From the NCBI GenBank assembly GCA_016212965.1, contig JACRDA010000354.1, positions 39,033 through 103,032 of the forward strand: a DNA stretch of 64,000 bases. The letters are read 5' to 3'. A program made the translations under genes and the position numbers. The first letter of the stretch is position 1. Each line of letters begins with the position of its first letter. The stretch comes from Myxococcales bacterium. Lineage in GTDB: Bacteria; Myxococcota_A; Polyangia; Polyangiales; Polyangiaceae. Shown in pieces: positions 24,161 through 37,548 of the stretch. The notes beneath the pieces were generated by a model, which saw nothing but the letters and a program-made list of their open reading frames with translations, ran no database searches and was not told the DNA's origin.

Positions 24161-26317
24161 ATGGACCTCCGGCTCTGGCACAGGCTGCGGGTACGGCTTC
24201 GGCGTGGCTCCTCGGGCGCGCCGCCCGGGTGGAGCGGACCGACCCACGCCGAAGTGACGGCGCGGTGGTCCCGCCGGCGGCGCGTGCGGCGCGTGCTCAC
24301 CTGGGTCGCGGCGAGCGCCTTCGTGCTCGCGACGGCGCTCGGCCTCGCGACCGTGCTCGTCTACCGCTCGGTGCGGGCGGCCGCCACGGCGTGCTTCGCG
24401 TCGATCGAGGCGCCCCGCGGCGAAATGCTGCCGGACTGCGAACGCTTCGCCGCGCGCCTGTGGCTGCCCCTCCGGGCGCCCTGGACGCGCCGGGCTGCTC
24501 GGTGGCTCGTCGAGGAGATCACGGTGCGGATGGCCGTCGCGCGCTACGTGGACGCCGCGATCGGGCACCCCGATCCCGAGCACCTCGACGCCGCGCGCGA
24601 GGCCGTGCGTGTGGCGGCCACCGAGCTCGACGCCGGGACGGCGCGCCTTCGCCTCGACGAGCTCGGGCCGATGATCCCCGCCCCGGACCCCTTCGATCTC
24701 GCGGCCGATCTGGGTGACCACCGCGGGCTCGTGGCCCACGAGGGCCCCTTCCCCCACTGGTACACCGCCCGCCGGGCCCTCGACTGGGCGCTGGCGCGCG
24801 GTCGCAGCTCCGATGCCGTGCGCCTCGCGGCCGACAACCTCGGCCGCGACGCGGACGAGCTCGAGCTCGCCGTTGGCGCCGTCCTCTGCGCGTACGGCGA
24901 CGTGGAGCGCGGCCTGCCGGCGCTCGTCGGCATCCAGGACCTCTGGGCACGCAAGCGCAAGGCGAACTTCGCCCGTGCGTACGGTGGGGCCCGCGGGCTC
25001 GTCGAGGCGTGCGCCGCGCGGAGCGCGACGGCCCCGCCCCCGCTACCGAGCGGCGAGGGCGGAGGGCCGCTCGACCACGTCGAGCAGCGCGCCGTCTTGC
25101 GCCTGCGGCTCGCCGAGCGCGCGGACGGTTGCGACCCCGCCGCCGAGGCAGCGCGCTGCGGGGAGCGGCCGACGGTGCACGAGCGCGTGGCGGACATCCT
25201 CGCGACGCTCGGCTCGGGCGAAGCGCTGCGCCACCGGCTCGCGCTCGCCGCGAGCGTGCTGCCCTACCTGACGGAGGCAGAGCGCGTGCGTGCACTCGTC
25301 ACGCCGGCGGAGGGCGAGGTCCCGCGCGAGCTCGGCGCCGCGCCGCTCGACTGGTTGACTCCGGCGCGCGACGAGCCCTTCGTTCCGGCCGAGCGCTGGG
25401 CGTCCGCCGCGGACGCCGTGGTCCGCATGGCGCGCGAGCACGCCGAGCTCGGGCCGGTCGCGGCGCGGCTCGCGCTCGGTGCGGCTCGCGCCTTCGCCAT
25501 CCGCGGCAACGGGCCGGTCGCGCGGGCCTACGCGGGGCGTTCCGGGGATGCGCTCGGGCCGGACGGTGCGCGCCTCGCGCAGGCGCTCGCGGCCTACCTC
25601 ACGGGCGAGCTGCCCGCGGCGCTCGAGCTGCTCGGGGGTGAGCCTGGCGCCGAGCGCGCACCCATGGCGGCGCTGCGGGCCGAGATCGTCGCCGAGATCG
25701 GACACGTGGGGTCGCGCGAGCCCGGGGCGGGCCGCATGGAAGACGTGAGTCGCGCCATCGCCCAGGGACTCGAGGCGCCGCGCGCCGCCGACGCCGCGCC
25801 CGAGAGCCAGCGGACGGCGGCCGCGCGCGAGCGGCTCGGCTGGCTCGGCAGCTGCGTGCTGCCGCCGGCTGGCGGCGAGAGCCTCGCCGGCGCGGTCGAC
25901 CTTCCCCCCTTCGTCGGTCCCCTGGCCATGTCGGAGGCGGGCGTGCGCCGCGAGCGGCTCGAGGCCGCCCAGGCGGCCTGGCGTCGGATGCGGGCCGGCT
26001 CGGGTGCCGAGTGGCGCTCGTACCGCTACGCCCTCTTGCGGCGCCGCGGCGACGCGCCGCCCGCGCTCGGGAGCTACCTCGCCTGCGCCGCCGCGCTCGT
26101 CGACGAGCCGGCAGAGGTCGAGCCGTGGCTCGACGCGTTCGTGGCCGTGGACCTCGGCGCGCTCGGCCTGCGGGCGCACGCCTTCGCGCGGGCGGTGGCG
26201 GCGCGCTTGCGCGGGGACGCTGCCGCTGCCGCGATCTGGACCGAGACCTACCGCACCCTCGCGCGCGAGGCCTCGGACCCCGCGCGCGCCGAGCTCTTCC
26301 AGGCGCTGCGCTACTGA
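24161..26317 (+). CDS. membrane-anchored helical repeat-like protein, function unknown
   Basis: 718 residues beginning at ATG 24161. A basic N-terminus (RRRRVRRVL) precedes one transmembrane helix (WVAASAFVLATALGLATVLVYRS), so the remaining ~650 residues probably face the periplasm. The rest is Ala/Arg/Glu-rich and helical with TPR-like signatures (ALDWALARGRSSDAVRLAADNLG, GLPALVGIQDLW, AREHAELGPVAARLALGAARAFA), but I see no canonical TPR array. It starts 10 bp after the permease, so it is probably the last gene of the importer operon. No enzyme motif is found. Confidence 0.6.
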   Translation: MDLRLWHRLRVRLRRGSSGAPPGWSGPTHAEVTARWSRRRRVRRVLTWVAASAFVLATALGLATVLVYRSVRAAATACFASIEAPRGEMLPDCERFAARLWLPLRAPWTRRAARWLVEEITVRMAVARYVDAAIGHPDPEHLDAAREAVRVAATELDAGTARLRLDELGPMIPAPDPFDLAADLGDHRGLVAHEGPFPHWYTARRALDWALARGRSSDAVRLAADNLGRDADELELAVGAVLCAYGDVERGLPALVGIQDLWARKRKANFARAYGGARGLVEACAARSATAPPPLPSGEGGGPLDHVEQRAVLRLRLAERADGCDPAAEAARCGERPTVHERVADILATLGSGEALRHRLALAASVLPYLTEAERVRALVTPAEGEVPRELGAAPLDWLTPARDEPFVPAERWASAADAVVRMAREHAELGPVAARLALGAARAFAIRGNGPVARAYAGRSGDALGPDGARLAQALAAYLTGELPAALELLGGEPGAERAPMAALRAEIVAEIGHVGSREPGAGRMEDVSRAIAQGLEAPRAADAAPESQRTAAARERLGWLGSCVLPPAGGESLAGAVDLPPFVGPLAMSEAGVRRERLEAAQAAWRRMRAGSGAEWRSYRYALLRRRGDAPPALGSYLACAAALVDEPAEVEPWLDAFVAVDLGALGLRAHAFARAVAARLRGDAAAAAIWTETYRTLAREASDPARAELFQALRY

Positions 26318-26408: not shown

Positions 26409-27008
26409 ATGCGTCCGGCTCAGCTCCTCCTCGGCGCGGCCTGCCTCGCGATCGTCGGCCACGCGCGCCCGGCCCACGCGTACGAGCGCCAGTGGCACGT
26501 GGGCGGCACGTTCGGATACGTGTTCGCGCCCTTTCCCGTGGCGGGCGCGACGCACGGCTTCGGGGGGGGTGCCCACCTCGCATACGGCCTCTCGGATGCC
26601 TTCGATCTGCGCGTGAACGTCGACGTGCTCGGCTTCTCGGTCGCCGAGCCGCTGCCCGAGGACGCGCCCGTGCCGCCGGAAGGGCTCCCGCACCACGCGG
26701 CGACGGTGTGGTCCGGCACGGTGGGCGCGCAGTACGTGCTCGACATCCTCGAGTGGGTACCCTACTTCGGGCTCGCCCTCGGCTTCGCCGACGTGGTGCA
26801 GCCGCCCACCGGCGCCGCGAGCGGCGAGCGGCTCCACGATCCGAACCTCGCCTTCGAGATCCCCTTCGGCATCGCCTACCTTCCGATCCCCGAGCTCTCG
26901 GTCGGCCTCGAGGGGCGCTACCGCGTGCTCGCCCTCGGCACGTCGCCGCGGACGCCCGTGCAGATGATCCTGGCGACCGCGCGCCTGGAGTACGTCTGGG
27001 GGTACTAG
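26409..27008 (+). CDS. outer-membrane beta-barrel protein
   Basis: 199 residues from ATG 26409 with a cleavable signal peptide (LLLGAACLAIVGHARPAHA|YERQ). The mature part is a small beta-barrel with alternating aromatic/hydrophobic strands (WHVGGTFGYVFAPF, HLAYGLSDAFDLRVNVDVLGF, WVPYFGLALGFADVV, LSVGLEGRYRVLAL) and ends in an aromatic C-terminal residue (YVWGY), as in OMPs handled by BAM. It resembles the OmpW/OprF-N-like 8-stranded class by size. Its function is unknown. It converges with the degenerate signalling gene at 27055. Confidence 0.7.
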   Translation: MRPAQLLLGAACLAIVGHARPAHAYERQWHVGGTFGYVFAPFPVAGATHGFGGGAHLAYGLSDAFDLRVNVDVLGFSVAEPLPEDAPVPPEGLPHHAATVWSGTVGAQYVLDILEWVPYFGLALGFADVVQPPTGAASGERLHDPNLAFEIPFGIAYLPIPELSVGLEGRYRVLALGTSPRTPVQMILATARLEYVWGY

Positions 27009-27054
27009 CGCCGACCTGCGCCCAGCACCCGAGCGCCGGGCGGCGAGCGGCCCA

Positions 27055-29241
27055 TCAGCCCCGGCGGTTGCCGCGCGGCGGCGGCACGGTCGTGACGTCG
27101 CGCTCGTCCCGCGGCGGGCGCCGCACACGGGGCGGAGGCGTGGGGGCGTCGTCGTCGGCACTGCGCTGCGTCACGGGGTTCGCCCCGGGGCTCGACGGCA
27201 CGGCCGGCGCGTCCGCGGCTGCGCTCCCCTCGCGCTCGGGCGACGAGCCGCGCCCGGTGCCGAAGTGCGGGGTGCCGCCGTCGTCGACCACCACGCGGGG
27301 TCGCTGGGGCGCCGTGGGCCGCTCCGCTCGGGCGCGCAGCGAGGCGCTCGACGGCGATGGCGTGGTGGGAGCGGGGGTGGGGCGGCGGCGCGCCGAGGCA
27401 GCGCGCGGCTCGCTCGGTCGGGCCGGCGGATCCGTGGGCCGGGTCGCGTCCTCGCTCTCGAGCTCGCGCACGCCGTCGCCCCGACCCTGGCGCGGCGTGG
27501 ACGCCTCGGCGGTCGGGGGCACCGAGAGTGTGGGCGCGGCGACCGGCCGTCGCTCGGGATCGGAAGCACCGTCGAGCAAGGCGGTGACCTCCTCGAGCCC
27601 GATGGGTCGGATGAGCGTGGGGCAGCCGGAGGCCGTGAGGTAGCTCGCCACCTCCGCGGGCATGACCCCGTCGACGAGGAACACGAAGCGCCGTGCCAGT
27701 TGCGGGGCGACGTCCCGGTGCAGATCGAGCCCCGACCCATCGGGGAGCGCAACGGCGCAGAACACGTACGCCGGCGTCTGCTCGAGCTCCGCGAGCAAGC
27801 GCCGCCCCTCGCCGAGCGAGGCCGCCGTGCGCGTCTCGGCCGCCTTCAGGCAGCGCCGCACGCTGCGCACGAACGGCTCGTCGTCGTCGATCCACACGAC
27901 GAGCGGCAGCGGCCCGACCGGTGGTAGCGAGCGCGGGGGCTTCGAGGAGATGCGCCGCGCGGACCGCGCGCCCGCGGATGCGGCCGGAAGCACCACGCGC
28001 AGATGCGGAGCACGCCGATCCTTCGCGCCGACCTCGATGTGGCCGTTGTGCGAGAGCACGATCTGCTTGGCGACCGCGAGATCGAAGCTCGGACCGCGCC
28101 CCTCCGGGCGGCGCCCCGGCAGGTAGAACGCGTCGAACGCCTGCGGGCGCACCTCGGTGTGGGCGGGGCTCTCGACGCTGAGCAGCAGCCGGTCGCCCTC
28201 GTGGCGCAGCTCGACCACGATGCACGGTGCGCGCAGGCGCTCCACCTCGCACTCCTGGGCCGCGTAGAGCAGGAGCTGCAGCACCAGCATGTGGAGGTTC
28301 TCGGCGCGGCCCGCGATGAAGCACGGCGCGCCCGCCCGGCGTAGCTCGACCGTGAGGCCGCGCGCAGCGAGGGAACGCCGCGCCAGCTCCACGCTCCCCT
28401 CGACGACCGCGCCGAGCTCGAGCGTCTCGAGCGCCGATTCGCGCGACAGAGCGAGCAGGCGGTGGACCACGTCCTGCATGCGATGGGTGCCCGCCGCGAT
28501 GTCCCCGGTGAGCGAGTGCAGCTCCGCGAGCTCCTCGTCGTCGGGGCCGTGGCGGCGCCGCAGGACCTCGACGAGCGCGAGCTGCTCCTCGAGCTGGAGC
28601 TCGAGCCCGGCGAGCGGGCTCGCGAGCTCGCCGGCCACCGTCGAGGCGACCAGGCCGATGGTCGCGAGCTGTGCCGTGCGCGTCTCGTGCAGCCGCTCGT
28701 CGCGCTCGCGCTCGAGCTCGCGCTCCCGCGCCAGGGCTAGCCCCACGATGCTGCAGGCGCTGTCGAGCAACAGGCGCGTGTCCGGGTCGAAGGCCGTCTT
28801 GTCCCCGGCGGCCACCACGAGCAGCCCGAGCAGCTTGCGCCCGATCACGATCGGCGCCGCCGCGAGCACGCGCCAGCCCCCCTGCAGGAGCGCCAGGCGC
28901 GAGGCGTGCTCCTGCACGGCTGGCTGCCCGAGGTCCTCGACCTCGTAGCGCAGCGACTGCGCCACCCGCTGAGCCACGAACCAGCGCTCGTCGCCGCTCG
29001 GCAGGTGCGCGAGCCACGGCTTGGCCTTGCGCGGCACCCCGTGGTCGCTCACGAGCGCGAGCCCCTCGGCGCGCGCCCGGTAGCAGAGGCCGCCGACGGC
29101 CCCGACCACCGGTACCAGCACCTCGAGCGCCGTCGACAGTACCGCGCCGGTCTGATCGCGCGCCACTTGCTGCGCGAGCGCGACGAGGGCGTTGCGGTGT
29201 GCGAGCAGCACGCGCGCGTGGGGCGGGCTCGGAGCGGCCAT
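27055..29241 (-). CDS. GAF-pseudokinase-pseudoreceiver signalling protein
   Basis: 728 residues. Residues ~20-175 look like a GAF sensor (TGAVLSTALEVLVPVVGAVGG, GRKLLGLLVVAAGD). A coiled linker leads to a HisKA-like dimerisation region, but the normal phospho-acceptor VAHEINNPL reads VAGELASPL (Gly 204 in place of His). The HATPase region (~290-415) has lost the N-box Asn (LLLYAAQ) and glycine boxes (GPSFDLAVAK). The receiver (~440-560) keeps the acidic pocket WIDDDEP but its phospho-Asp position reads Ala 496 (CAVALPDG), and the Lys is Arg (RPIG). The Ser/Pro/Arg-rich tail of ~160 residues is likely disordered. Thus it probably signals by binding or conformational change, not phosphotransfer. 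Confidence 0.75.
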   Translation of the reverse strand: MAAPSPPHARVLLAHRNALVALAQQVARDQTGAVLSTALEVLVPVVGAVGGLCYRARAEGLALVSDHGVPRKAKPWLAHLPSGDERWFVAQRVAQSLRYEVEDLGQPAVQEHASRLALLQGGWRVLAAAPIVIGRKLLGLLVVAAGDKTAFDPDTRLLLDSACSIVGLALARERELERERDERLHETRTAQLATIGLVASTVAGELASPLAGLELQLEEQLALVEVLRRRHGPDDEELAELHSLTGDIAAGTHRMQDVVHRLLALSRESALETLELGAVVEGSVELARRSLAARGLTVELRRAGAPCFIAGRAENLHMLVLQLLLYAAQECEVERLRAPCIVVELRHEGDRLLLSVESPAHTEVRPQAFDAFYLPGRRPEGRGPSFDLAVAKQIVLSHNGHIEVGAKDRRAPHLRVVLPAASAGARSARRISSKPPRSLPPVGPLPLVVWIDDDEPFVRSVRRCLKAAETRTAASLGEGRRLLAELEQTPAYVFCAVALPDGSGLDLHRDVAPQLARRFVFLVDGVMPAEVASYLTASGCPTLIRPIGLEEVTALLDGASDPERRPVAAPTLSVPPTAEASTPRQGRGDGVRELESEDATRPTDPPARPSEPRAASARRRPTPAPTTPSPSSASLRARAERPTAPQRPRVVVDDGGTPHFGTGRGSSPEREGSAAADAPAVPSSPGANPVTQRSADDDAPTPPPRVRRPPRDERDVTTVPPPRGNRRG

Positions 29242-31866: not shown

Positions 31867-33102
31867 TCAGCCGGTGGTCGTCGGCCGGTCGAGGCCGAAG
31901 CCGTCGTGGAGGGCGCGGACGGCGAGCTCGGCGTACTTCGCGGCCACGATGCAGCTCACCTTGATCTCGCTCGTCGCGATGGCCTGGATGTTGATGCCCT
32001 CCCGGAAGAGGATGTCGAACATCCGCGCGGCGACGCCGGCGTGCGAGCGCATGCCCAGGCCCACGATGCTGACCTTGGCGATGTCGCGCTCGAAGCGCAC
32101 CTCGCGCGCGCCGACCTGTTCGGCGACCGCCTGGACGACCTTGTCGACGCGGTCGAGCTCGCTCTTGGCGGCGGTGAAGGTGACGTCGGTGCGCCCGGTC
32201 GCGTCGCTCGAGGCGTTTTGGATGATCATGTCGACCGAGATGTTCTCGGCCGCGAGCGCGCCGAAGATGGTCGCCACCACCCCGGGCCGGTCCTCTACCG
32301 CGACCAGCATGACCCGCGCCTCGCTCTTGTCGCTGGTCACGCCGGTCACGACGACGCTCTCGAGCCCCGCCTCCTCGCCGACCACCCAGGTCCCGGGCGC
32401 GTCCGAGAAGGACGAGCGCACGTGGATGGGGACACCGTACTTCATCGCTACCTCCACGCTCCGCCGCTGCAGCACCTTGGCGCCGAGCGCGGCGAGCTCG
32501 AGCATCTCTTCGTAGCTGATGCGCTCGATCTTGCGAGCGCCCGGGCACACGTTCGGGTCGGCGGTGTAGACCCCGTCGACGTCGGTGTAGATCTCGCACA
32601 CGTCGGCGCGGATCGCGGCCGCGACCGCGACGGCGCTCGTGTCGCTGCCGCCGCGCCCCAGGGTCGTGATGTTGCCGGCGTCGTCCACGCCCTGGAAGCC
32701 CGCCACGACGGCGATCGAGCCGTGCTTCAGGCTCTGGCGCAGCGCCTCGGCGTCGATGGCGAGGATGCGCGCCGAGGTGAAGGCGCTGTCGGTGCGGATC
32801 TTGAGCTGGTGGCCGAGGAAGCTCCGCGCCTTGCCGCCCTGCGACTGGATCGCCATCGCGACGAGGGCCGACGACACCTGCTCGCCCGTCGCGGCGATGA
32901 CGTCGAGCTCGCGCCGGTCCGGCAGCTCGGTCACGCGCCGCGCGAGGTCGAGCAGGCGGTTGGTCTCGCCCGCCATGGCGCTCACGATGAGCACGACCTC
33001 GTTGCCCGCCGCCTGGGCCGCGACCGCGCGCGCCGCCACGTTGTGGATGCGGTCGACCGAACCGACGGAAGTGCCGCCGTACTTCTGGACCACGAGGCTC
33101 AC
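31867..33102 (-). CDS. lysC: aspartate kinase
   Basis: 411 residues. It phosphorylates aspartate to start lysine/threonine/methionine and DAP synthesis. The catalytic domain shows [53 protein letters not shown] and [11 protein letters not shown]. Two C-terminal ACT domains ([44 protein letters not shown]) would give lysine/threonine feedback control. The start is ATG 33102. It is divergent from the Gld-type ABC operon, with a 354-bp control region between the starts. It also supplies DAP for the MurE step encoded at 55.9 kb. Confidence 0.96.
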
Positions 33103-33323: not shown

Positions 33324-33343
33324 GTGGATCGTGTTCGATCCAC
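33324..33343 (+). promoter_or_regulatory. hairpin at the 5' end of the operon leader
   Basis: GTGGATCG and CGATCCAC form a perfect 8-bp stem with a TGTT loop, beginning about 7 nt after the predicted transcript start. It may be an operator dyad or an mRNA 5'-protecting stem. Confidence 0.45.
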
Positions 33344-33456
33344 GTCGGCACCGCCCGCTCTTGAGAGGGGCAGGACGCCCCACGCGGCGCGGGTGCCGCT
33401 CTGGCGCTCGGCTCGAGCACGTCTCGGCAGGCGTGACGGTGCATTCGGAGGTTCGA

Positions 33457-34767
33457 TTGGCTAGCGACGTTTTGATCGAGGCGACTGGCCTCACCAAGAG
33501 CTACGGAAGCTTCCGCGCCCTCGACCGCGTGAGCTTCAAGGTGAGGCGCGGTGAGGTCGTCGGCTTCTTGGGCCCGAACGGCGCCGGCAAGTCGACGACC
33601 ATGCGTATCCTGACCTGCTACATCTCGGCGACTGCCGGGACCGCGCGGGTCAACGGCTTCGACGTGTTCGACGACCCGCTCGCGGTGCGGCGCTCGCTCG
33701 GCTACCTGCCGCAGCGCGCGCCGCTGTACGGCGAGATGTCGGTCATCGAGTACCTGCGCTTCGTCGCCGAGATGCGGCAGCTCGACCACATGACCTTCAA
33801 CAAGACCATGAAGAGCGTGGTCGAGGTCTGCGGTCTGGCGGCGGTGCTCAACAAGGAGATCCGCACGCTGTCGCACGGCTACCGGCAGCGCGTGGGTCTG
33901 GGGCAGGCGCTGGTGCACAACCCGCGCATCCTCATCCTCGACGAGCCCACGAGCGACCTCGACCCGAACGAGAAGGCCGAGGTGCTGCGCTACATCAAGG
34001 AGATCGGCAAAGACCGCACGGTCATCCTGTCGACGCACAACCTGGCCGAGGTCGAGGAGGCGTGCGCGCGCGCCATCATCGTCTCGAAGGGGCGCGTCGT
34101 GGCGGACGGCGATCTCGAGGAGGTGCGCGCGCGCGGCGGACGGGTGCGGTACACCGTGACCGTTCACGAGCAGCGCATGCTCGGCGGTGGCGCCAACTAC
34201 CGCAAGGACCCGAACGCGAAGCCGCCGACGGCCCTCGAGGTGCAGCGCGCGCTCGAGTCCATCAAGGGTGCGACCCAGGTGAAGGAACTGCCGACCGACG
34301 ACCAGGCCCACCGCTTCAGCCTGCTCGGCCCGGCCAACGTCGACTTCCGCCCCGATCTGTTCGAGCTGGTGGTGCAGCGGGGCTGGCTCATGCTCGAGAT
34401 GCGCCGCGACGTGCAGAAGCTCGAGGACGTGTTCCGGTCGCTCACACTCGCCGACGAGAGGCTCGACCGCGGCCGGCCCCTGCGCACCGCCGAGACCGAC
34501 GACGAAGAGGACGAGGGCGGCGCCGAGGAAGAGGACGAGGCGCCCGCGCGCCCGAAGGCGGCGGCGAAGCCGAGCGCCGCCGCGGAGCCCGAGGGCGACG
34601 AGGACGAGGACGAGGACGACGAGGCAGCCGAGCCAGCCAAGGCCGACGCGGACGTCGAGGACGAAGACGAACCCGACGACGAAGACGAAGACGCCGAAGA
34701 AGAAGAGGAGGAGGAGCCCGAGCCCGAGCCGCGCGAGAAGCGCGGTGCCAAGGGCCGCGCCAGGTGA
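33457..34767 (+). CDS. gldA: Gld-type ABC transporter ATPase with acidic C-terminal tail
   Basis: 436 residues from TTG 33457, chosen because GGAGG lies 5 nt before it and it begins right at the domain (ASDVLIEATGLTKSYGSFRAL). The ATPase core has Walker A FLGPNGAGKSTTM, signature LSHGYRQRVGLGQAL, Walker B LILDEPTSDLDP and switch His STHNLAEVEEA. A ~110-residue extension follows the core, then a striking ~90-residue Asp/Glu-rich tail (DEEDEGG, EDEDEDDE, EEEEEEPEPEP) ending in a basic GAKGRAR. By family (GldA/NosF/DrrA-like) it powers the GldF/GldG membrane parts encoded next. In Bacteroidetes GldAFG is linked to gliding; in other phyla the role is unclear. The symbol is by analogy. Confidence 0.82.
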   Translation: MASDVLIEATGLTKSYGSFRALDRVSFKVRRGEVVGFLGPNGAGKSTTMRILTCYISATAGTARVNGFDVFDDPLAVRRSLGYLPQRAPLYGEMSVIEYLRFVAEMRQLDHMTFNKTMKSVVEVCGLAAVLNKEIRTLSHGYRQRVGLGQALVHNPRILILDEPTSDLDPNEKAEVLRYIKEIGKDRTVILSTHNLAEVEEACARAIIVSKGRVVADGDLEEVRARGGRVRYTVTVHEQRMLGGGANYRKDPNAKPPTALEVQRALESIKGATQVKELPTDDQAHRFSLLGPANVDFRPDLFELVVQRGWLMLEMRRDVQKLEDVFRSLTLADERLDRGRPLRTAETDDEEDEGGAEEEDEAPARPKAAAKPSAAAEPEGDEDEDEDDEAAEPAKADADVEDEDEPDDEDEDAEEEEEEEPEPEPREKRGAKGRAR

Positions 34768-34906
34768 TCCCGACGGCCGTGGGTGCCGTGTCCCGGGGGT
34801 GAGCCCGGCGCGCACGACCCCGCGGCCCGGCTGACCGCGGCGCTACCCGCCGGCGGTCGTTCCGCCCTCCCTCCGACACTCATCAAGGACAGCAAGCGAC
34901 CCCATC

Positions 34907-35650
34907 ATGCGCTCCACATTGACCATCGCGAAACGAGAGTTTCGCTCCTACTTCGACGCTCCGCTCGCCTACATCGTCATCTGTCTCTCGCTCGTGATGC
35001 TGGGCTTCGCGGTGTTCCTCGTCGGCGACCTCACCTTCTTCAAGGTCAACCGCGCGGACCTGACCAACATGTTCAAGTGGACCGCGCGCGGCCTGGCCTG
35101 GCTGATCGTGCCGGTCATCACGATGCGCCTCGTCGCCGAGGAGAAGCGCAGCGGCACCCTCGAGATGCTGATCACGCTCCCGGTGCGCGACCGCGAGGTC
35201 ATCCTGGGCAAGTTCCTGGGAGCGTGGAGCCTCGTGCTCGTGCTCATCGCGGCCTCGGCCCTCTACCCCATCATGATGTTCGTGTTCCCGTGGAAGCTCG
35301 GTGCGCTCGACTGGCGCCCGGTGCTGAGCGGTTACCTCGGTCTCGTGGTGCACTCGACGGCGGCGGTCGCGCTCGGCCTGCTCATCTCGTCGATCACCGA
35401 GAGCCAGATGATCGCTCTGCTCGTCACCGTGTCGCTGCTCTTCCTCCTGCACCTGTTCGGCGGCGACCTGTCCGTCGACTGGCTGCCCGAGGGCGCCCAG
35501 CGGGCGGCCTCGCTCATCAGCTTCGACGGGCGGCTCGAGAGCTTCCGCAAGGGCATGATCAACACGCACGACGTCGTGTACTTCCTGAGCATCGGGGGAG
35601 GCTGCCTCATCGGCGCGTTCTTCGCCCTCGAGCGGCGCAAGTGGGCCTGA
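34907..35650 (+). CDS. gldF: Gld-type ABC transporter permease
   Basis: 247 residues, ATG 34907, with six or so hydrophobic helices. ABC-2 features include KREFRSYFDAPLAYIV at the N-terminus, WLIVPVITMRLVAEEKRSGTLEMLITLPV (EExxSGTLE coupling segment) and VILGKFLGAWSLVLV. It is followed by GldG-like and DUF4340 genes, the classic gldAFG plus DUF4340 arrangement seen in several phyla. It lies 139 bp after the ATPase gene; I see nothing in that gap beyond the leader. The symbol is by analogy. Confidence 0.85.
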   Translation: MRSTLTIAKREFRSYFDAPLAYIVICLSLVMLGFAVFLVGDLTFFKVNRADLTNMFKWTARGLAWLIVPVITMRLVAEEKRSGTLEMLITLPVRDREVILGKFLGAWSLVLVLIAASALYPIMMFVFPWKLGALDWRPVLSGYLGLVVHSTAAVALGLLISSITESQMIALLVTVSLLFLLHLFGGDLSVDWLPEGAQRAASLISFDGRLESFRKGMINTHDVVYFLSIGGGCLIGAFFALERRKWA

Positions 35651-35664
35651 GGAGATAGACAGCC

Positions 35665-37548
35665 ATGGAACGCAAATCGAGAACGGCCGCCCTCTCCTGG
35701 GTCTACCTGGTGGTGGTTGCGGCGATCGTCGTCGTCGTCAACCTGCTCGCCTTCGCGACCAACAAGCGCATCGACATGACCAAGGAAGAGCGCTTCACGC
35801 TCTCCAAGGGGTCGAAGAACCTGGTGCACGAGGGGCTGTCGCAGCCCATGGACGTCGACTTCTGGGTGACGCGCGGGACGCCCGAGCTCAACACCTTCGT
35901 CGACGACGTCACCAACCTGCTGCGCGAGTACGAGGCCGCGAGCCAGCAGAACTGCGGCCCCGACCAGCGCCGCCCCACGGCGAACGAGCCGTGCTTCAAG
36001 TTCGAGATCAAGGAAGCCAAGACCGAGGACGACCGCAAGAAGGCCGAGGAGGAGCAGCTCTCGCCCTATCCCCTGAAGCCGAAGGAGCTCACCGGTCCCG
36101 AGGCGCTCAAGGGCGACTTCATGGGCATCGTGTTCCGCTACGGCGCGGGCAAGGACCAGATCCCGCTACTCGCGCCGGGTCAGGCGGACCAGGGGCTGGA
36201 GTTCTGGATCACGAACAAGATCCGCGAGGTGCGCGACAACGCCGACGGCCTGAAGCAGAAGGTCGGCGTCATCACGGGCAAGGAGGAGATCAAGCTCTCC
36301 GACGCGAACCTCGTGCCGCCCGAGCAGGGCCAGCACAACATGAAGGGCATCCTCGAGCGCGCCTTCCCCTTCTACGAGATCGCCGAGGTGGATCTGCAGA
36401 ACGGCGACGCCACCATCGACCCCGAGCTGAAGGGCGTCATCGTGACGCAGCCGGGCAAGGATTACACCGACAAGGAGCTGCGTCGCATCGACGAGTTCCT
36501 GATGCGCGGCGACAAATCGCTCGTGCTGTTCGCGGGCGCGGTGAACATGAAGTCCTCCGAGGCGAGCATGAAGGCCGAGCTCAACCTGCACGGCCTCGAC
36601 AAGCTCCTCACGGGCTACGGCGTCGAGATGAAGAACGAGGCCGTCGTCGACTGGGGCCGGCCGGCGCAGGTCGGCCTGCGCATGGGAGGTCGCGTGCTCG
36701 CGGTGCCGCTCGTCGGTGTGACGCTGGCGCAGCACCAGGCCGGCGCGCGCGACGAGGAGCAGGCTCTGGACGCGAGCTTCGTGGGCTTCTTCCGCATGGA
36801 GGCGCTCGCCTTCCCCTATCCCTCCAGCCTCGCCCTGCACAACGAGGCGCAGCCCGAGGTCGAGTTCAAGGTCATCGCTCGGTCGAGCAAGAACGCCACC
36901 GTCGACGACGGCAGCGAGGTGCAGTTCGACGTCGTGGCCGCCCTCCAGGGCCGCGGCATGCAGCCGAAGGGCGACCGCGGCATGCGCGCCATCGCCGTGT
37001 CGGGCGAGGGCAACTTCAAGAGCGCCTTCACGGGCAAGGACGACGAGCACATCAAGCCCCCGAATGCGGCGGCGCGCGCGCGCCTGCTCGTCGTCGCGAG
37101 CGGGCAGTTCCTCGCCAATCCGCTGGCGCGGGCGGGCAACCCGCCCCCGATGCCGCCGCAGATGCAGATGATGGGCTCCATCGGCGGCGACAAGCAGCTC
37201 CAGCAGCTGTCCTTGCCTTACGCGCAGGAGTACCTGACGCCCACCATCCTCGCCTTCAAGAACATCGTGGACTGGATGTCCGGCGACAGCGACCTCGTCG
37301 CGGTGAGCGCCAAGCTCATCAGCTCGAGCCCGCTCACCTACGGTGACCTCGAGCAGCCGGTGAGCGACCCGAACGAGAGCGCCGAAGAGGCGCAGCGCAA
37401 GAAGGACGAGTACACGAATGCGCGCGAGTCCCTGAAGAACAAGGTCACGGCGGCGGTCATTGCGGTGCCGCCGCTGCTCTTCGCCGCGCTCGGGCTGCTC
37501 CGCTGGTGGCTGCGCTCGCTGCGCCGCAAGCGCGCCGTCGTGTTCTAG
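35665..37548 (+). CDS. gldG: GldG-family ABC auxiliary protein
   Basis: 627 residues from ATG 35665 with a GAGGAGA site. An N-terminal transmembrane helix (WVYLVVVAAIVVVVNLLAF) and a C-terminal one (AAVIAVPPLLFAALGLLRWWL) bracket a large periplasmic domain. Marks of the family are DMTKEERFTLSKGSKNLV, the DVDFWVTRGTPELN strand and a KVGVITGKEE segment, then the ABC_transp_aux (DUF4350-like) fold with KGVIVTQPGKDYTDKELRRIDEFLMRGDKSLVLFAG. Two Cys (QNCGPD, EPCFKF) could pair. It is probably the extracytoplasmic partner of the GldA/GldF-type transporter. Confidence 0.85.
   Translation: MERKSRTAALSWVYLVVVAAIVVVVNLLAFATNKRIDMTKEERFTLSKGSKNLVHEGLSQPMDVDFWVTRGTPELNTFVDDVTNLLREYEAASQQNCGPDQRRPTANEPCFKFEIKEAKTEDDRKKAEEEQLSPYPLKPKELTGPEALKGDFMGIVFRYGAGKDQIPLLAPGQADQGLEFWITNKIREVRDNADGLKQKVGVITGKEEIKLSDANLVPPEQGQHNMKGILERAFPFYEIAEVDLQNGDATIDPELKGVIVTQPGKDYTDKELRRIDEFLMRGDKSLVLFAGAVNMKSSEASMKAELNLHGLDKLLTGYGVEMKNEAVVDWGRPAQVGLRMGGRVLAVPLVGVTLAQHQAGARDEEQALDASFVGFFRMEALAFPYPSSLALHNEAQPEVEFKVIARSSKNATVDDGSEVQFDVVAALQGRGMQPKGDRGMRAIAVSGEGNFKSAFTGKDDEHIKPPNAAARARLLVVASGQFLANPLARAGNPPPMPPQMQMMGSIGGDKQLQQLSLPYAQEYLTPTILAFKNIVDWMSGDSDLVAVSAKLISSSPLTYGDLEQPVSDPNESAEEAQRKKDEYTNARESLKNKVTAAVIAVPPLLFAALGLLRWWLRSLRRKRAVVF

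Follow-up and report, generated by a model that had tools for sequence, protein, structure and literature searches.

Domain layout of the gene at 27055-29241

The 64,000-nucleotide window, that is, the whole stretch of Polyangiaceae DNA analyzed here, carries on its reverse strand a complete gene for a protein of 728 aa (Table 1). The domain order matches that of a cytosolic hybrid kinase. The GAF input domain predicted by a first-pass annotation of the sequence lies above its Pfam cutoff, and the domains that follow it fall below theirs (HisKA, 14.1 bits; HATPase_c, 22.1 bits; Response_reg, 17.8 bits); in an intact relative with the same layout, by comparison, HATPase_c reaches 91.6 bits and Response_reg 40.1 bits. 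No PAS domain was found in the protein with Pfam. Searches with phmmer against solved structures matched its core to ZraS and other kinases and its C-terminal part to KdpE and NtrC-type receivers, and in BLAST residues 17-557 align with intact hybrid kinases with E values of 7e-45 or below. Histidine kinase homology, seen both by BLAST and in the matches to ZraS and other histidine kinases in the PDB, spans the whole length of the core. The fold assignment rests on this homology because the AlphaFold2 models had pLDDT values of only 45 and, in the one consulted for the (beta-alpha)5 fold of the receiver, 47, the input having been two near-identical sequences and the alignment therefore too shallow; in the former model the DHp region is the only stretch with a pLDDT of 70-80, and it is drawn as helices.

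The composition of residues 561-728 (20% Pro and 16% Arg, with order-promoting residues at 10% versus 33% in the core) agrees with the long disordered tail that had been proposed. This is nevertheless the least conserved part of the protein, absent from most relatives and differing in length by 21 aa from the ortholog of a congener. A 670-aa open frame (27005-29017, reverse strand) overlaps the gene in another frame and is most likely an artefact typical of very GC-rich DNA.

Table 1. Features of the 728-aa protein, its altered catalytic positions and its gene neighborhood, in window coordinates.
Feature	Position	Strand	Evidence or remark
Complete gene, 728 aa	27055..29241	(-)	ATG start, no internal stop
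GAF domain, residues 33-170	28732..29145	(-)	Pfam above cutoff, 26.7 bits vs 22.4
DHp-like helical pair, residues 176-270	28432..28716	(-)	Structure and 32-protein alignments
Degenerate HATPase_c/CA fold, residues 293-420	27982..28365	(-)	Sub-cutoff Pfam and alignments
Pseudo-receiver, residues 446-560	27562..27906	(-)	Sub-cutoff Pfam and alignments
Pro/Arg/Ala-rich tail, residues 561-728, probably disordered	27058..27561	(-)	Composition
Phospho-His replaced by Gly204	28630-28632	(-)	Alignment with intact hybrid kinases
N-box Asn pair replaced by Gln322/Tyr326 (N-box Asn = Tyr326)	28264-28278	(-)	Alignment
G1 Asp replaced by Ser358	28156-28170	(-)	Alignment
G2 glycines (GxGxG) lost, GPSFD instead	28081-28101	(-)	Alignment
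Receiver phospho-Asp replaced by Ala496	27754-27756	(-)	Alignment
Receiver Thr replaced by Val523	27673-27675	(-)	Alignment
Receiver Lys replaced by Arg545	27607-27609	(-)	Alignment
Aspartokinase	31867..33102	(-)	Directly adjacent to orthologous pseudokinase in G160 and G174
GldAFG-like gliding-type ABC transporter, three genes: ATPase, permease, auxiliary (ABC_transp_aux)	33331..37548	(+)	Neighborhood marker conserved in several genera
Conserved secreted/outer-membrane-type, barrel-like protein, 198 aa (AYERQWHVGG)	26412..27008	(+)	Convergent neighbor; kept in genus g15

Loss of the phosphotransfer residues

The phmmer alignment with ZraS places VAGELASPL on VAHEIRNPL, and an alignment of 32 proteins agrees. 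Since AHEIRNPL of ZraS faces AGELASPL, the register of the His site is settled, and the concern that the manual alignment behind the first-pass annotation was out of register can be rejected. That annotation had read a Gly at the His position, as both alignments bear out. Its further claims, that the N-box Asn and the glycine boxes are missing and that the receiver has Ala for the phospho-Asp (in CAVALP) and Arg for the Lys, hold at the residues listed in Table 1; the loss of the receiver Thr had been overlooked. The acidic pocket of the receiver persists as described (IDDDEP, with DDD at residues 452-454), and its D, T and K are all missing. Glu205, the acidic residue that follows the His position, persists, and D or E stands there throughout the His-less clade described below. 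The features that define a catalytic hybrid histidine kinase, namely the DHp His, the N, G1 and G2 boxes, and the receiver Asp, Thr and Lys, are absent from the protein. Judged by its sequence, it is incapable of phosphotransfer by the known mechanism and fits the testable features of bacterial pseudo-histidine kinases and pseudo-receivers.

The closest model of mechanism is DivL of Caulobacter, a selected histidine kinase fold without phospho-His that serves as a sensor, binding a regulator and controlling another kinase (PMC5361649). As in DivL, the phospho-His is missing from a histidine kinase fold that has been kept. DivL, however, has PAS domains and a Tyr at the His site, whereas the 728-aa protein has a GAF domain and a Gly; unlike DivL, it also lacks the ATP site and is fused to a pseudo-receiver. 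The receiver part invites comparison with FrzS, which, unlike the 728-aa protein, is not known to have a kinase fold. In FrzS, CikA and receiver 1 of ShkA, a receiver likewise stands without Asp, Thr and Lys, and protein or ligand binding is expected of it; the pseudo-receivers of CikA and ShkA, however, sit on live kinases, whereas the kinase of the 728-aa protein is dead too (PMC12632262). The ShkA type combines a live kinase core with a pseudo-receiver and a true receiver, in contrast to the dead core seen here.

A 2025 review puts HisKA domains without the phospho-His at 0.9% and terms the mechanisms of pseudo-receivers a mystery (PMC12632262). The open-access literature searched yielded no doubly dead protein accompanied by a phylogenetic series that leads up to it. 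Counts of two-component kinases in myxobacteria would include proteins unable to signal by phosphate.

Relatives, selection and order of loss

Relatives were sought across the family, the order and the phylum, and 32 proteins were aligned. Related full-length proteins were found only in Polyangiaceae: none turned up outside the family at E 1e-28 among 284 genomes of the phylum, nor was any relative found in the viral contigs searched. Sixteen His-less members, the 728-aa protein included, form one clade (support 98/97). The His column of this clade holds G in the 728-aa protein and its congener, C in G152, E in G161, G004, G168 and a paralog from the same genome as the 728-aa protein, R in G160 and G174, D in six species of genus g15, and never His. 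Grouping by shared motif loss was considered as the cause of this clade and rejected: a tree of the GAF domain, inside which there is no catalytic column, recovers it with support of 100/99, although support in the full tree minus the motif columns falls to 87/74. The loss of His predates the divergence of seven genera. Two more His-less proteins, G125 (with Gln) and G162, fall within an otherwise intact clade; a single origin for all 18 His-less proteins is rejected (AU test, p 6e-05), and the tree implies three or more losses of His.

The sister clade consists of intact GAF-HisKA-HATPase-receiver hybrid kinases (G129, G169, G172, G140, G171, G007, G144), which have the same domain order, are 29-34% identical to the 728-aa protein over most of its length and keep the His, N-box, G boxes, Asp, Thr and Lys. 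Where the flanking genes were read, these kinases adjoin gatC-gatA and a Ser/Thr kinase gene, which is a different locus. With an intact member as the query, no genome containing a protein of the His-less clade yielded a full-length close relative of that member (39% or more), and no close intact counterpart was found at high identity in the genome of the 728-aa protein itself. Decay here beside intact relatives had been named as the case that would overturn the first-pass reading; the intact proteins proved to belong to a separate clade, locus and set of genomes. The paralog (L029, G000:C67:2429-4147) is 38% identical to the 728-aa protein and has an ortholog of its own (L042, on G001:C657); Glu replaces its His and Ser its receiver Asp, and the Lys and DDD are kept.

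The congener, Polyangiaceae bacterium SJ101, has an ortholog (L001) that is 92% identical over its full length and 98% over residues 1-558. The catalytic substitutions, for which the first-pass annotation had proposed a check across relatives, are fixed there too, and no member of the clade has His. Nei-Gojobori estimates for this one close pair give a dN/dS of 0.138 overall; the GAF domain stands at 0.129, the receiver at 0.097 and the tail, the least constrained part, at 0.286. The most constrained region in the pair is DHp plus ATPase (0.034, with 3 nonsynonymous versus 30 synonymous changes), residues 271-425 of the ATPase being at 0.018. Purifying selection acts on the gene and is most intense in the dead kinase fold, a result that substantiates the earlier view of a protein both phosphotransfer-dead and selectively maintained. 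A soil-type myxobacterium thus keeps a protein shaped like a kinase plus receiver under strong selection without the phosphate residues. That the gene might be a hybrid kinase pseudogene in decay, its frame open by chance or recency, would accord with the loss of every catalytic residue and the existence of intact relatives, but it is extremely improbable in view of the kinase-region dN/dS, the count of clade members with a stop codon inside the match (0/16), a loss older than seven genera, the appearance of new invariant residues and a dN/dS of 0.18 for the paralog. A dN/dS this low in effect excludes decay, although the value comes from one genome pair.

Among the residues that hardly vary, if at all, within the His-less clade but do so in the intact clade are Y54, W87, F88, Q91 and W123 in the GAF domain, R261 in the DHp, and W450 and D501 in the receiver; genus g15 shares the GAF signature WFxAQ. 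Conservation between genera of the His-less clade is 43% for the GAF domain, 42% for the receiver and 34-36% for the DHp and ATPase, against 46-59% for kinase and receiver and 36% for the GAF domain in the intact clade. Across genera, selective weight has shifted towards the GAF domain, whereas between the two congeners it is the kinase fold that changes least.

G160 and G174 retain the receiver Asp; elsewhere in the His-less clade A, E, T, S or N stands in its place. Under parsimony this requires at least three changes on the tree, or four losses if there was no regain, the latter count being our own reading of the tree. A dead kinase combined with an intact receiver Asp is found in G160 and G174 and, independently, in G125 and G162. 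In the otherwise intact clade, G059 (L046), G155 (L057), G125 (L047), G151 (L061) and G162 (L062) have a damaged ATP site and still keep the receiver Asp, Thr and Lys, G125 and G162 being without His; these are further independent kinase deaths. No member of the protein set examined pairs a live kinase with a dead receiver. In G004 (L059 8415-11060) and G168 (L055 8096-10261), which represent the two genera with an appended intact receiver (g4 and g83), a dead kinase and a dead receiver are followed by a second, intact receiver, scoring 98 bits for Response_reg in G004 (best stretch 763-870). Among the relatives, this tandem of pseudo-receiver and true receiver occurs in these two only. The members of genus g15 (G015, G111, G120, G121, G127, G128) have Asp for His, an intact ATP site and an unrelated tail in place of the receiver. 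The g15 orthologs L014 (4990-6849) and L048 (5696-7528), from genomes of 11-13 Mb, show the opposite loss pattern at the same locus.

The natural reading of these patterns is that autokinase activity was lost first in the family, that the receivers would then have been phosphorylated in trans, and that several lineages went on to free the receiver as well. The distribution of residues supports a death of the receiver after that of the kinase, and on more than one occasion. Tentatively, the family may have followed a repeated, ordered path in which the kinase was lost, a trans-phosphorylated receiver was kept, and this receiver was then either lost or supplemented by a newly grafted one, leading to a phosphate-free, ligand-gated GAF adaptor in which this domain is better conserved between genera than any other part. 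Within one family, the proteins range from intact kinases through kinases dead beside a live receiver, and dead kinases with a re-supplied receiver, to fully dead forms; this natural series makes it possible to test in which order functions were lost and what mechanism replaced them.

Gene neighborhood and proposed role

Neighboring genes were called with a crude codon-position score. Small secreted or cytochrome-type genes and the aspartokinase precede the 27055-29241 gene, with the Gld-like transporter beyond them; the gene and its neighbors form no single tight operon in the window. This block is conserved in four genera; around the G160, G174 and genus g15 proteins (read in G015 and G111) it recurs entire or in pieces, which speaks for their being true orthologs. 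It is not kept in G152, G161, G004 or G168, nor around the paralog. The aspartokinase serves as a neighborhood marker and is not thought to belong to the mechanism. The convergent 198-aa protein has no Pfam match. A 718-aa protein at 24161-26317 of the window, also without a Pfam match, is conserved beside the gene in genus g15.

The protein could be an adaptor for targets other than two-component systems, such as its envelope or ABC-transporter neighbors, with the two folds reused as binding scaffolds. Conservation of the block with the Gld-like ABC transporter, the aspartokinase and the outer-membrane-type protein is in keeping with such a role, as is the loss of all phospho-sites, which removes the need for a two-component partner, and a precedent exists in FrzS, whose pseudo-receiver acts in motility (PMC12632262). 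This explanation is nevertheless unlikely, given the members of the same protein family around which the block is missing, the paralog among them, the lack of a single tight operon and the phosphorylatable receivers kept in relatives.

Our preferred reading, to which we assign a probability of roughly 0.6, is that of a soluble, dimeric, non-catalytic adaptor that descends from a GAF hybrid histidine kinase and docks on two-component partners. The protein probably signals by binding partners, without phosphate chemistry, and may act as the scaffold or sensor that the first-pass annotation had suggested. By analogy with the protein families to which its domains belong, the dimer would form through the DHp helices. 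Binding of a ligand or partner to the GAF domain would alter how the pseudo-DHp/ATPase dimer packs, and the surfaces of pseudo-kinase and pseudo-receiver would dock on true two-component partners so as to recruit, sequester or inhibit them. The ancestor may have joined a dead kinase fold to a live receiver that received its phosphate in trans from another kinase; in the lineage of the 728-aa protein the receiver Asp would then have been lost too, leaving control based purely on binding.

A residual activity other than that of a kinase is conceivable as well, for example stimulation of response-regulator dephosphorylation through the DHp surface, as in His-less phosphatase mutants. HisKA phosphatases use Thr or Asn at position +4 from the His, and this position is variable in the clade (S/A/G/D/E/T). 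The clade-wide acidic residue at E205 would suit a phosphatase, and the conserved His is dispensable for HisKA phosphatase activity, but the review that reports this disputes phosphatase activity as a general role of pseudo-histidine kinases (PMC12632262). Together with the variable +4 position, this makes such an activity an improbable explanation, distinctly more so than an adaptor for other targets.

If the protein is an adaptor docking on two-component systems, its putative partners would be among the kinases of its own genome (G000), which holds about 80 other kinase-like loci and one His-less paralog. In G004 and G168 an intact receiver-PAS-GAF kinase, 62-64% conserved, lies divergently adjacent to the gene, and this arrangement suggests a kinase partner in those two. 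As a universal partner this kinase was rejected, having no close counterpart in G000 or G001; because its own genome is without one, a kinase of the g4/g83 type cannot be the partner of the 728-aa protein. The paralog L029 is a possible heterodimer partner.
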